Shown: positions 556-27,669 of the stretch, piece after piece | How the letters are laid out: the number at the start of each line of letters is the position of its first letter | How positions within the stretch are numbered: position 1 is the first letter of the stretch | From: a virus | Strand: one strand, 5' to 3' | Length of the DNA: 27,669 nucleotides | Virus record (IMG/VR): IMGVR_UViG_3300042301_002047 | Span: 1 to 27,669 of that record | The notes under the pieces: generated by a model | Databases searched by the model: none | What the model was told of the DNA's origin: nothing | The model's input: only the letters and a program-made list of their open reading frames with translations | Position numbers and translations under genes: made by a program

Positions 556-998
556 GAACCCTAGCCCTCCTCCTCGCGGCGACCTCCCTCGGCTACGCCA
601 TCACCCCTGGACAAGTCGAGGCCATCATCTTCGTCGAGTCCTCCGGCAACCCCAAGGCCATCGGGCGACTCGGGGAGCGTGGCCTCGCTCAGTTCTTCCC
701 TGCTGCGTGGGCCGATACGACCCGCTGGCGTGCCCGCCACGGCCTTCCGACCTACGGGTACAGCACTTGGGCCACGGACGAAGGGGTCGGGCGGGAATAC
801 GCCACCTCTTGGCTGACCCTCCTCGAGGAACGGCTGACCACGGCGCTAGGCCGACAGCCCACCCTTGGGGAAGTCTACGCCGCCCATCAGCTCGGCTTTG
901 CGGGCTTTAAGTCTAAAGGGTTTGACCTAAGGAAATGTCCGACCATCACTCGGGTCGTGGTTGCTCGCCTTAACCGAGACCCACGCTCCACCAAATGA
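552..998 (+). CDS. Exported lysozyme / lytic-transglycosylase-like lysin
   Basis: A 148-residue protein with an N-terminal signal-like segment (MRTLALLLAATSLGYA) followed by an SLT/lysozyme-like core. The segment IIFVESSGNPKAIG...GERGLAQFFP (about residues 25-49) has the glutamate (E29) and the G-L-x-Q-F pattern of soluble lytic transglycosylase domains. These cleave peptidoglycan between N-acetylmuramic acid and N-acetylglucosamine. The size is small for that family, so only the minimal catalytic fold is present. With its own export signal it could reach the periplasm without a large-pore holin, or be a signal-arrest-release type endolysin. On the circle it lies about 1.5 kb downstream of the holin-like gene (26214). 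It overlaps the resolvase gene by four bases. Confidence 0.8.
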   Translation: MRTLALLLAATSLGYAITPGQVEAIIFVESSGNPKAIGRLGERGLAQFFPAAWADTTRWRARHGLPTYGYSTWATDEGVGREYATSWLTLLEERLTTALGRQPTLGEVYAAHQLGFAGFKSKGFDLRKCPTITRVVVARLNRDPRSTK

Positions 999-1465
999 AC
1001 AAGCCAACCATCGTCGCCGTCGACCCGGGCGTTAACGGAGGCATCGCCGTCTTCACTCCTTCCGAGGGGACGACCGAACTCCACAAGATGCCCCCGACCG
1101 ACTGGGACGTCGTGAACCTAATCAAGTCCATCCACATGAACGCAGGCCGCGTCATCCTGTACCTTGAGGAGCCTCCGCTCTTCGCCGGCAAGAACATCCC
1201 CGGCTCTGCCATCGGCAAACTGATGTGGAACACGGGCGTCCTCTACGGCTCCGCAGTCGCCAACGGCTGGGAAGTCCACCGCGTGAAGCCCGCGATCTGG
1301 ATGAAGGCCCACCCTGTCGGCACCAAGGGCGAACGCACCTCGACCCAATGGAAGAACGTTCTCAAGGCACGGGCCTGCGAACTCTTCCCAGACGAGGACG
1401 TGACCCTCTGGAATGCCGACGCTCTCCTAATCCTTGACGCTGCCAAACGCGGCGCCATCAACTAA
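995..1465 (+). CDS. RuvC-like Holliday junction resolvase
   Basis: A 156-residue protein with the RNase H-like layout of RuvC-type resolvases. It has the first acidic motif AVDPGVNGGIAVF with D10, a glutamate in the third strand (LYLEEPP, E58 or E59), and the C-terminal helix motif WNADALLILDAA with D142 and D148. These residues bind the two metal ions that cut branched DNA. In phages of this kind the enzyme would resolve recombination or replication junctions before packaging. It sits directly ahead of the ERF annealing protein and RecE-like nuclease, which fits a recombination module. It starts within the lysin stop (ATGA). Confidence 0.85.
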   Translation: MNKPTIVAVDPGVNGGIAVFTPSEGTTELHKMPPTDWDVVNLIKSIHMNAGRVILYLEEPPLFAGKNIPGSAIGKLMWNTGVLYGSAVANGWEVHRVKPAIWMKAHPVGTKGERTSTQWKNVLKARACELFPDEDVTLWNADALLILDAAKRGAIN

Positions 1466-25115: not shown

Positions 25116-25256
25116 ATGTCCTACCTCATCCTCTTCATCACCGGCCTCCTCATCGGTTTCGTCGCTGGCCTTCTCGTTTACAGAAAGCACTCCGACCGCA
25201 TCAAGTCCACCGAGGACAAGGGCAAGACCATCATCGACGCGCTCAAGGGTCGCTGA
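25116..25256 (+). CDS. 46-residue single-membrane-segment peptide
   Basis: ATG 25116, three bases after the previous stop, opens a frame ending TGA at 25254-25256. The peptide MSYLILFITGLLIGFVAGLL is a clear transmembrane helix, followed by VYRKHSDRIKSTEDKGKTII and a basic end (DALKGR). The N-out or N-in orientation cannot be settled, though the positive tail favours C-in. It is the first of a run of membrane genes and could be a small holin-like or antiholin-like peptide, or a spanin helper. Confidence 0.7.
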   Translation: MSYLILFITGLLIGFVAGLLVYRKHSDRIKSTEDKGKTIIDALKGR

Positions 25257-25283: not shown

Positions 25284-25997
25284 ATGCATCGCATTTTGGT
25301 CATCTCTCTTCTCCTGGCTGGATGTGCCACGACTCCGCCTGTCCCTGAACCTGTCCCGCAGGAGGGGACGCTGGAGGTCGTCGGCAAGAAGGAGGACAAG
25401 TTGGAGTCCCGCACCTCCGCCGCCGTTGCCGTAGCCAAGGCCAACGCAGACCAGCCAGCCATCGTCCGCTCGGAGTTATCCGTTGCCGAGGCAGGCTTGC
25501 CTCCCCCGTCCGCTGCCGACCTCGCCTACGCCCAAGCCCGGGCCGCCAAGCAAGACCCTAAGGCCTACGAGTCCAGCATCGCCAACGCCGCCAAGGCCAA
25601 GGCCGACATCGACGCCATGTGGCACAAGCTCGAAGCCGAGCAGAAACAGAACGCCGAGGTCATGTCGAAGATGGTCGGTGAAATCGACACGTTAAAGAAA
25701 CACGTCGAAGAGGCGAAGAAGGAAGGCCAGCGGAACCTCTACGCGATGGTCGCCGCGGGGATGATGGTCCTCGGTGGTTTCGCCATCGCCTTCGGTCGCG
25801 TCATGATCGGGGCGGGCCTCCTCGTCTCTGGCGTCTGCATCGGCGCCGTTCCCTTCCTCCTCGACTCGCCTTGGTTCCTGCCGTCCGTGGGCGGTCTCTT
25901 CCTTGTCGGCCTCCTTCTCGGGGGATGGCATCTCTACAGCGGACACCTCAATAAATCGCATGGCCCTCAAGAAGAAGATAAAAATCAAGGAGGCTAG
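25284..25997 (+). CDS. Lipoprotein with coiled coil and three membrane segments (spanin-like candidate)
   Basis: A 237-residue protein starting at ATG 25284 after an A/T-rich leader. Residues 1-14 (MHRILVISLLLAGC) are a lipoprotein signal with lipobox L-A-G-C14. The +2 residue is alanine, which favours outer-membrane sorting. A proline-rich linker and then a long helical, coiled-coil-prone region (about 98-150, IANAAKAKADIDAMWHKLE...KKHVEEAKKEGQR) lead to three predicted membrane segments (about 153-170, 173-193, 197-218). A lipoprotein joined to membrane helices by a coiled coil is the plan of unimolecular spanins, which bridge and fuse inner and outer membrane in the last step of lysis. Having three helices instead of one is unusual. 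Confidence in the spanin role is moderate. Confidence 0.7.
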   Translation: MHRILVISLLLAGCATTPPVPEPVPQEGTLEVVGKKEDKLESRTSAAVAVAKANADQPAIVRSELSVAEAGLPPPSAADLAYAQARAAKQDPKAYESSIANAAKAKADIDAMWHKLEAEQKQNAEVMSKMVGEIDTLKKHVEEAKKEGQRNLYAMVAAGMMVLGGFAIAFGRVMIGAGLLVSGVCIGAVPFLLDSPWFLPSVGGLFLVGLLLGGWHLYSGHLNKSHGPQEEDKNQGG

Positions 25998-26217
25998 GAT
26001 GGGGCGGCGTCTCTTGGGTCAGGCCATCAAGGAGGGTGACTCCTACACCATCCGCATCAACTCGAACCACGGCACGGAAAGGTCACGGCTGAACACGGTC
26101 GTCCACGAAGCCCTGCACGTCGGCGACTTCGACCTTACGGAAGCCCACGTCCGCTCCCTGACCTCCGTCGTCACCGAAGTCCTCTGGCGGGAAGGCTACC
26201 GCCGCATCAAGCAATGA
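25960..26217 (+). CDS. Small HExxH protein, putative metallopeptidase
   Basis: An 85-residue protein. The ATG at 25960 overlaps the end of the previous gene by 38 bases. An alternative ATG at 25999 has a good AAGGAGG (25987-25993) at five bases' spacing, and would remove the first 13 residues (ALKKKIKIKEAR), a likely beta strand. HEALH (residues 49-53) is a zinc-binding HExxH motif, with D56, D58 or E61 as a possible further ligand. It is followed by a helix ending SVVTEVLWREGYRRI, a widespread phage small-protein pattern ('iHE.lH....l.e..v..l...l...L.r.GyR'). In the lysis cassette a role in lysis or in protein processing is possible. The next gene overlaps the stop (ATGA). Confidence 0.7.
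   Translation: MALKKKIKIKEARMGRRLLGQAIKEGDSYTIRINSNHGTERSRLNTVVHEALHVGDFDLTEAHVRSLTSVVTEVLWREGYRRIKQ
25987..25993 (+). promoter_or_regulatory. Strong Shine-Dalgarno sequence inside the lipoprotein gene end
   Basis: AAGGAGG, five bases before the ATG at 25999, is one of the very few canonical ribosome-binding sites in this genome. It favours the shorter start of the HExxH gene or a second, shorter product. Confidence 0.5.
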
Positions 26218-26582
26218 GTCCTCCCCCGCCCATCGACAGCGACTCCACGCAGTCCCTCGTCAAGGATGGCCTTGTGGCCTCGATCCTCGGAGGCCTCGCG
26301 ATGACGGCACGGCTTCTCCTCTCGACCGAGCCTGTCTCACCGGGCTGGGTACTACGCCGTATTACTGCCGCCGCCATCACCGCGGCCCTTGTCGGCTACG
26401 GCATTGCCGACCATATCTCTTCCCCTGGACTACGGATGGCAGTCGTCGGTGCGTCTGGCTACGCTGCCCCCGAGGTCATGGACTACGTCCTGAAGTATAT
26501 CAAAGCCCGCGGCGAGGCCGAGGTCGCCAAGGTGACCAAGAAACCCAATGGCAAAAAGAAACCAGCCAAGCGCAGGAAGTGA
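26214..26582 (+). CDS. Holin-like membrane protein
   Basis: A 122-residue protein starting in the stop of the HExxH gene (ATGA). Two to three membrane segments are visible: LVASILGGLAMTARLLLS (about 19-36), ITAAAITAALVGYGIAD (about 50-66) and MAVVGASGYAAPEVMDYVL (about 75-93). They are followed by a highly basic tail (KKPNGKKKPAKRRK), the layout of phage holins of the LydA/superfamily III kind ('vk.gl.a.lgg.a...r......... r....a...a...g......').  Holins form lesions in the inner membrane at a set time. The exported lysin at 552-998 is its likely partner via the circular join. Confidence 0.75.
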   Translation: MSPPPPIDSDSTQSLVKDGLVASILGGLAMTARLLLSTEPVSPGWVLRRITAAAITAALVGYGIADHISSPGLRMAVVGASGYAAPEVMDYVLKYIKARGEAEVAKVTKKPNGKKKPAKRRK

Positions 26583-26589
26583 GTCTAAC

Positions 26590-26874
26590 ATGATGTGGGC
26601 GACGGTGGCCCTGCTTGTTTGCTCTGCCGTGGGGGCTTTCAGCGTGGCCTATATCAGCTCGTACATCCTCGACTCCTTTCAGAACACAACTGCGATGGTC
26701 ATGCTGATCACGGACGCCGGCACGAAGTCGGACGACGCGAACCTTGAGCGCCAACTGTCCGTCGCCACCTTGGGGCTGAAGGCCTGCCGCGACCTTGGCT
26801 GGGCCTTGGCGGTCGGGTGCCTAGGGGTGGGGGTGGCGGTCTTCCTACGCTTCCGCCGTCAAAACGCCTCCTAG
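26590..26874 (+). CDS. Small two-segment membrane protein (second holin or antiholin candidate)
   Basis: Start taken at ATG 26590, eight bases after the holin stop. ATG 26548 in the same frame would overlap the holin by 35 bases. The 94-residue protein has membrane segments MMWATVALLVCSAVGAFSVAYI (about 1-22) and GWALAVGCLGVGVAVFL (about 71-87), with a charged loop between and a short basic end (RFRRQNAS). Directly behind a holin this could be an antiholin, but there is no sequence evidence beyond topology. Confidence 0.65.
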   Translation: MMWATVALLVCSAVGAFSVAYISSYILDSFQNTTAMVMLITDAGTKSDDANLERQLSVATLGLKACRDLGWALAVGCLGVGVAVFLRFRRQNAS

Positions 26875-27439: not shown

Positions 27440-27669
27440 ATGAAACCAACCACCAAGCCCAAGGCCACGCTCGTCTCCGACAAAGCGATGGTCGAACTCC
27501 TCACCCGCCGCGTCGCTAACTTCCGCGAGACGGCTAAACTCAAGGACACCAGCGGATACGTCCGTGGCATCGGCTCCTACGCCCTGTATGGCATCAACCA
27601 CAGCGCCGGGCAACTGGTCGTTCTGGCGAGCGAACCGACCTCGTCCGACTTCAACAAGTATGTGACCGC
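27440..27669 (+). CDS. Unknown small protein, N-terminal part (continues at base 1)
   Basis: Start ATG 27440 after the leader CTCCCAACCCAC. The gene reads off the right end and continues in frame at base 1 of the window after subtracting the 127-base overlap, ending at 236 (112 residues in total). The N-terminus is basic (MKPTTKPKATLVSDKAMVEL). See the 1-236 entry for the C-terminal part. The intact frame through the join supports a correct circular assembly. Confidence 0.85.
   Translation, partial: MKPTTKPKATLVSDKAMVELLTRRVANFRETAKLKDTSGYVRGIGSYALYGINHSAGQLVVLASEPTSSDFNKYVT
27543..27669. repeat. Terminal direct repeat, right copy (circular contig overlap)
   Basis: Exact second copy of bases 1-127. 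Base 27543 corresponds to base 1. Removing one copy gives a circle of about 27,542 bp with an intact gene over the join. Confidence 0.9.

Follow-up and report, generated by a model that had tools for sequence, protein, structure and literature searches.

What is the function of a phage gene whose product combines, within a single chain, an N-terminal lipobox, a coiled coil and three C-terminal membrane helices? The gene occurs near the end of an IMG/VR viral record, IMGVR_UViG_3300042301_002047 (termed here the window, that is, the whole stretch of 27,669 nucleotides that was analyzed), and its product (termed here the candidate) is considered likely, on the evidence below, to be a unimolecular spanin (u-spanin) of new build: one chain with an alpha-helical stalk and three transmembrane (TM) helices. 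If so, it probably breaks the outer membrane at host lysis, a reading drawn from sequence comparison and gene context.

The two ends of the window carry the same 127-base repeat (1-127 and 27543-27669), so that the record closes into a circle of 27,542 bases. The candidate's open reading frame (25284-25997, plus strand) starts with the ATG at 25284, ends with a TAG stop at 25997 and encodes 237 residues. A short, basic, hydrophobic N-terminus leads into the lipobox L11-A12-G13-C14; this signal peptide and lipobox occupy 25284-25325, with the codon of Cys14, the residue predicted to be lipidated, at 25323-25325. There follow, all on the plus strand, a Pro-rich linker (residues 15-28; 25326-25367), which is the fastest evolving segment; a periplasmic helical N-domain (residues 29-91; 25368-25556); a coiled-coil-like periplasmic stalk (residues 92-150; 25557-25733); TM1 (residues 151-171; 25734-25796), predicted to run from out to in; TM2 (residues 172-193; 25797-25862), predicted to run from in to out; an acidic periplasmic turn (residues 194-201; 25863-25886), in which F198 is invariant; TM3 (residues 198-220; 25875-25943), predicted to run from out to in and the weakest of the three, with a median hydrophobicity score of 1.50; and a short, charged, Lys/Arg-bearing cytoplasmic tail (residues 221-237; 25944-25994).

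The periplasmic part was examined using two AlphaFold2 monomer models, the first built on 15 aligned sequences (mean pLDDT 71.1) and the second on 25 (72.8). Helices were predicted at residues 29-53, 58-71, 77-89, 92-169, 173-193 and 198-224, the fourth of these being single and continuous, so that the periplasmic stalk runs on into TM1 as one rod. The N-domain is modeled at a pLDDT of about 82-94; because values for the membrane part are about 64-76, helix packing is unreliable and the model was used for secondary structure only. The heptad contrast of window residues 92-150 was equalled by 4 of 1000 shuffles, and a similar result was obtained for seven of eight other cluster representatives (1 to 55 per 1000; 214 in the eighth, L054). 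Within the N-domain the contrast was reached by 786 of 1000 shuffles--that is, no heptad pattern is evident. The coiled coil that an earlier note, made from the sequence alone, had placed in the middle of the chain thus stands as regards its heptad pattern but not its position: it makes up only the latter half of what lies in the periplasm, and residues 29-91 form a helical domain of their own, under strong constraint.

Whether this architecture characterizes a family was addressed by seeking relatives within 2.9 million viral contigs, using as queries the window protein, an alignment, the HEALH neighbor described below and divergent members. (In one scan 212 of 218 pattern matches were confirmed, and the best 80 of the 212 were used.) From 131 matching ORFs, five with a cut start, one without a stop and 14 duplicate loci were dropped. 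The search among uncultured phages that the earlier note proposed thereby yielded a complete gene on at least 111 distinct contigs, the window included, whose products are 24-97% identical to the window protein and fall into nine clusters when grouped at 70% identity; at 80%, the effective number of sequences is 13.8. The gene is therefore conserved, and is not a chance reading frame. Two architectural claims of that note proved sound across the family: the Cys of the N-terminal lipobox (LAGC at Cys14 in the window) is invariant in all 111 complete homologues, the motif being atypical (LQTC) in L054; and the three C-terminal membrane helices, seen in the window as hydrophobic segments 152-170, 175-193 and 197-215 that each exceed 1.6 on the Kyte-Doolittle scale (19-residue span), score at least 1.2 in 111/111 and at least 1.4 in 101/111, against at most 0.81 for soluble segments of the same proteins. 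A periplasmic Cys occurs in none of the 111 (the one flagged in L037 is its own lipid Cys).

A distant branch, L056 and its relatives (L056 itself is counted within the 111), possesses the lipobox, the Pro linker, the coil, the three TM helices and the surrounding gene cassette, which fits the spanin reading as far as predicted architecture can; the N-domain is not evident there (A4). Profile-profile comparison of the main family with this branch gave an E-value of 1.3e-15. The main-family profile matches one distant-branch member, G402, at 6.8e-16, and misses the three others tested (G398, G399 and G401).

The candidate gene evolves under purifying selection. Relative to ten homologues, the window gene has a dN/dS of 0.125-0.317 in nine comparisons and of 0.626 against L028, the most distant of the ten; the median over 300 pairs sampled from 2886 is 0.198. 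By segment (49 disjoint pairs, eight of them within the window's clade), dN/dS is 0.46 for the linker, 0.33 for the signal, 0.28 for the juxtamembrane stretch, 0.24 for both the coil and the tail, 0.21 for TM3, 0.18 (0.183) for TM1, 0.14 (0.137) for the N-domain, 0.11 for the turn and, lowest of all, 0.078 for TM2. That the strongest constraint falls on TM2 is more than a pure anchor would call for, and is suggestive of a membrane domain whose role may exceed anchoring.

The orientation of this domain can be read from its charges. The TM1-TM2 loop contains Lys or Arg in 99 of 111 proteins and acidic residues at a mean of 0.00, whereas the TM2-TM3 turn contains Lys or Arg in 1/111 and a mean of 1.67 acidic residues; at the start of the tail (15 residues after position 217), Lys or Arg is present in 111/111, together with about as many acidic as basic residues (2.71 against 2.77). 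This positive-inside pattern fits an N-out/C-in topology with three crossings, in which case the stalk and coil should be periplasmic and the tail cytoplasmic. An outcome that the earlier note named as refuting it, a coil left in the cytoplasm, is thus not the one to which the charges of the 111 proteins point. Because the juxtamembrane stretch preceding TM1 is net basic in 83/111, the rule is weaker on that side, and it is the signal peptide that argues for an N-out start.

A periplasmic coil could also arise if the lipid and the helices sat in one membrane and the coil formed a periplasmic loop, as in a lipoprotein retained at the inner membrane. The +2 sorting rule for lipoproteins is an E. 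coli rule that may not be the host's, and the Lys found at +2 after the lipobox Cys in 45/111 is uninformative; Asp, however, occurs at +2 in 0/111, and the long stalk is kept across all branches, so that this arrangement appears very improbable. A tether from outer to inner membrane in one chain, as first proposed, is favored instead by the lipobox, the +2 residue, the charge topology and the absence of a periplasmic Cys, with lipidation and outer membrane sorting as predicted elements.

Lysis enters the argument through gene context. The gene order within the window is: a 46-residue TM protein, the candidate, a protein with an HExxH motif (HEALH), a holin-like protein, a two-TM protein and then an SLT-domain lysozyme, all on the plus strand; from the candidate through the two-TM gene, each gene overlaps the next. 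The 46-residue single-TM protein (25116-25256) matches PHROG 3879, of unknown function, at an E-value of 4.4e-11; its gene is present in 106/111 loci, at a median gap of 10.5 nt from the candidate gene, and it is itself a candidate pinholin or antiholin. The 85-residue HEALH protein (25960-26217), whose gene overlaps the candidate's 3' end, matches PHROG 1516 (unknown) at 1.3e-5; it accompanies the candidate in about 106/111 loci, and in the distant branch as well, and its motif raises the possibility of a small metalloprotease-like lysis factor. The holin-like gene (26214-26582; 4-nt overlap with the HEALH gene) owes its name to weak profile matches to the 'holin' families PHROG 6384 and 785 (1.6e-4 and 3.8e-3 for the window; 3e-5 for the L037 homologue and 1e-3 for L042); it is found in 104/111 loci and is never absent where more than 1500 nt of downstream sequence exists. 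The two-TM protein (26548-26874; overlapping the holin-like gene), which is without a database name, is counted within the lysis block by context only; it occurs in 94/111 loci, and the region between its helices is conserved. Some contigs (the L042 group) have a different order, in which the candidate is followed by the holin-like, the two-TM and then the HEALH gene.

The lysozyme (552-998) lies about 2.1 kb downstream of the candidate, across the circular junction; it scores 27.0 bits against the Pfam SLT cut-off of 21.3 and has an N-terminal hydrophobic signal. A homologue was found within the available flanks of 54 loci out of 111, with a hydrophobic N-terminus in 49 of the 54, and no match was found in 35 loci despite more than 1500 nt of downstream sequence; missing matches are due partly to flanks that end early and partly, perhaps, to the use of another lysozyme. 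Since the lysozyme seems to be Sec-exported, large-hole holins may be dispensable for these phages. Directly after the lysozyme, both in the window (995-1465) and in L054, is a protein that we take, by its motif, to resemble a RuvC-type resolvase.

The constraint on the membrane domain and its proximity to a holin-like gene bear on a further explanation: that the three-TM N-out/C-in domain itself permeabilizes the inner membrane in the manner of a holin, forming or gating lesions there, so that one chain would both set the timing of inner-membrane damage and breach the outer membrane through its lipid-anchored coiled-coil stalk. If true, this would couple two lysis steps that in characterized phages are performed by separate proteins. 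N-out/C-in is also the topology of the lambda holin S105. The candidate's TM2 and TM1 values may be set against those for TM segments in its holin-like, two-TM and 46-residue neighbors (0.138, 0.169 and 0.352, respectively; a rough comparison, as other pair sets were used), and the number of TM helices equals the three TMDs given for lambda S105 in the accessible literature. Sub-threshold matches to Pfam Phage_holin_3_6 (0.021 and 0.0098) point the same way, but proteins that combine a coil with TM helices yield weak holin matches through composition, hhalign comparison of the candidate with S105 revealed no similarity, and all 104 loci whose downstream sequence is long enough carry a holin-like gene besides the candidate. 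Such a dual function is accordingly judged improbable, and the candidate is better viewed as a probable u-spanin.

If the candidate is a spanin, is it the only component? All ORFs, from all starts and on both strands, were scanned for lipoboxes in the window and in eight other records of 28-46 kb. Under a strict rule the window yields the candidate gene alone; under a looser rule it yields in addition one short opposite-strand ORF inside another gene. An Rz1-like ORF with a lipobox embedded within the candidate gene was sought and not found, nor does the window encode a second convincing lipoprotein that could serve as the o-spanin of a two-component pair. The candidate's homologue is the sole convincing lipoprotein in seven of the eight other records (G396 also shows a 92-residue opposite-strand lipobox ORF, judged spurious); the eighth, G392, encodes elsewhere a second lipoprotein of 83 residues (L161:1787-2038), which counts against the spanin reading, plus a spurious 48-residue ORF. 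It follows that a lipoprotein spanin, if these phages use one, is this protein, and we infer a single-component function from the absence of another candidate.

The same scan, applied as a control, recovered gp11, Cor and one other ORF from T1, and Rz1 and Bor from a lambda stretch. Cor and Bor are phage lipoproteins that are not spanins, and by their example the candidate might be an envelope tether or regulator that does not disrupt the outer membrane--for instance, a holder of the lysis proteins or a superinfection-exclusion lipoprotein. Cor and Bor, however, lack a TM helix after the lipobox, and the candidate gene is fixed in the holin/lysozyme block; this role is judged unlikely. The proposal of a new spanin variant thus draws strength from the lysis cassette and from the lack of another convincing lipoprotein; because lipidation, outer membrane sorting and lysis function are predicted, we strongly infer, rather than observe, the lysis role and the term 'spanin'.

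Database searches added little by way of names. The window protein had no match in 50,697 phage records, and two divergent members had none that was credible; Pfam, NCBIfam and PHROG returned nothing for the family beyond weak coil or lipobox matches. Among those rejected because they follow only the coil or lipobox were PHROG matches of family members to an anti-repressor (5e-4), a head protein (4e-4), a hemolysin (5e-3) and an Rz-like spanin (1e-3 to 0.25), as well as PDB matches to myosin, nucleoporin, Rad50, tetherin, TraN and CsgG. Foldseek found nothing in the PDB below an E-value of 1 and, in BFVD, only two unnamed uncultured-phage proteins that stood out (36% and 24% identical; 5e-13 and 2e-5).

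Relatedness to u-spanins was examined with the T1-type family only. Alignment of the candidate with T1 gp11 by hhalign gave an E-value of 2.1e-4 at the TM2-TM3 turn and TM3, better than that of any non-family member of a set of 350 C-terminal-TM ORFs (the runner-up gave 0.0052; 22 rows of this set belong to the family or to its distant branch, and many of the rest are spurious ORFs). Homology was nonetheless rejected: the juxtamembrane resemblance is specific to T1, since eight T1-type proteins lack conservation ahead of the TM, and six of the eight align to the family via the lipobox rather than the TM. Other considerations also weigh against the spanin reading, namely that no relative is annotated, that the periplasmic part is predicted to be alpha-helical rather than beta-rich and that three TM helices exceed what an anchor needs.

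As to the host, a terminase relative (73%) lies on an Opitutae MAG contig that also holds a candidate homologue (E-value 3.4e-72); this contig could be phage sequence that was placed in the bin of its host. A second terminase relative (62%) occurs in a Verrucomicrobiota MAG, in which a candidate homologue was not found. Three of 387 Verrucomicrobiota genomes matched the candidate, the Opitutae contig included; the other two matches (3e-4 and 6e-4) are partial and were not credited. A prophage search of genome contigs with the candidate-family query A1 gave no match. The terminase relatives and the homologue within MAGs make a Verrucomicrobiota host likely, though not certain.

These observations suggest how the candidate might work as a u-spanin. 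Export of the chain would be followed by removal of the signal peptide just ahead of Cys14 and by lipidation of that Cys, which would then be directed to the outer membrane; the three C-terminal helices would remain in the inner membrane, N-out/C-in, and the alpha-helical domain and coiled-coil stalk would bridge the peptidoglycan. The tether is probably an oligomer, whose chains would be held together by the coil and by the TM1-TM2 hairpin, which is tightly conserved. If Rz/Rz1 and T1 gp11 are a guide, cutting of the wall by the exported SLT lysozyme would free the tethers to cluster and collapse, and their collapse would pull the outer and inner membranes together and thereby disrupt the outer membrane. 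A widespread alpha-helical three-TM u-spanin-like family, if true, would mean that there is a second way to build a tether from one chain; it would give Verrucomicrobiota-linked phages a candidate protein for outer-membrane lysis and assist the annotation of phages currently classed as lacking a spanin (91 of 677 genomes, according to the accessible text of PMC6139136 (Kongari 2018)). It also poses the question of whether a multi-helix membrane domain matters for outer-membrane disruption.

How does this build compare with known systems? In the accessible parts of the literature, no multi-TM u-spanin was found. As far as those parts go, the u-spanin definition in PMC6139136 does not include a single TMD, and all 58 published u-spanins treated there lack a periplasmic Cys; PMC12596118, which reports 261,425 spanin matches in IMG/VR, accepts unimolecular spanins with a lipobox and a TM and names no TM number; and PMC7830690 tabulates the u-spanin with one TMD, N-out/C-in, the described examples being beta-rich and the TM being thought an anchor only. 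The premise of the earlier note, that known u-spanins have a single C-terminal helix, agrees with that tabulation and with the one TM measured in 8/8 T1-type u-spanins, as opposed to the candidate's three. Like T1 gp11, the candidate is the product of a single gene that adjoins lysis genes, with an N-terminal lipobox, a C-terminal membrane anchor of N-out/C-in topology and no periplasmic Cys; unlike gp11 (133 residues, and beta-rich as described in the accessible text), it is 237 residues long, with an alpha-helical, coiled-coil periplasmic part and a strongly constrained TM region. The class I holin lambda S105 shares its three TM helices, but not its lipobox or its periplasmic part of about 136 residues. 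Like lambda Rz1 it has a lipobox and a Pro-rich stretch, like Rz a coiled-coil periplasmic part, and like the Rz/Rz1 pair it would work across the periplasm; in contrast to that pair, it is one chain with C-terminal TM helices, lacks a Cys for disulfide-linked dimers and bears no sequence relation to Rz. Relative to the spanins compared, namely T1-type u-spanins and lambda Rz/Rz1, its build is new.
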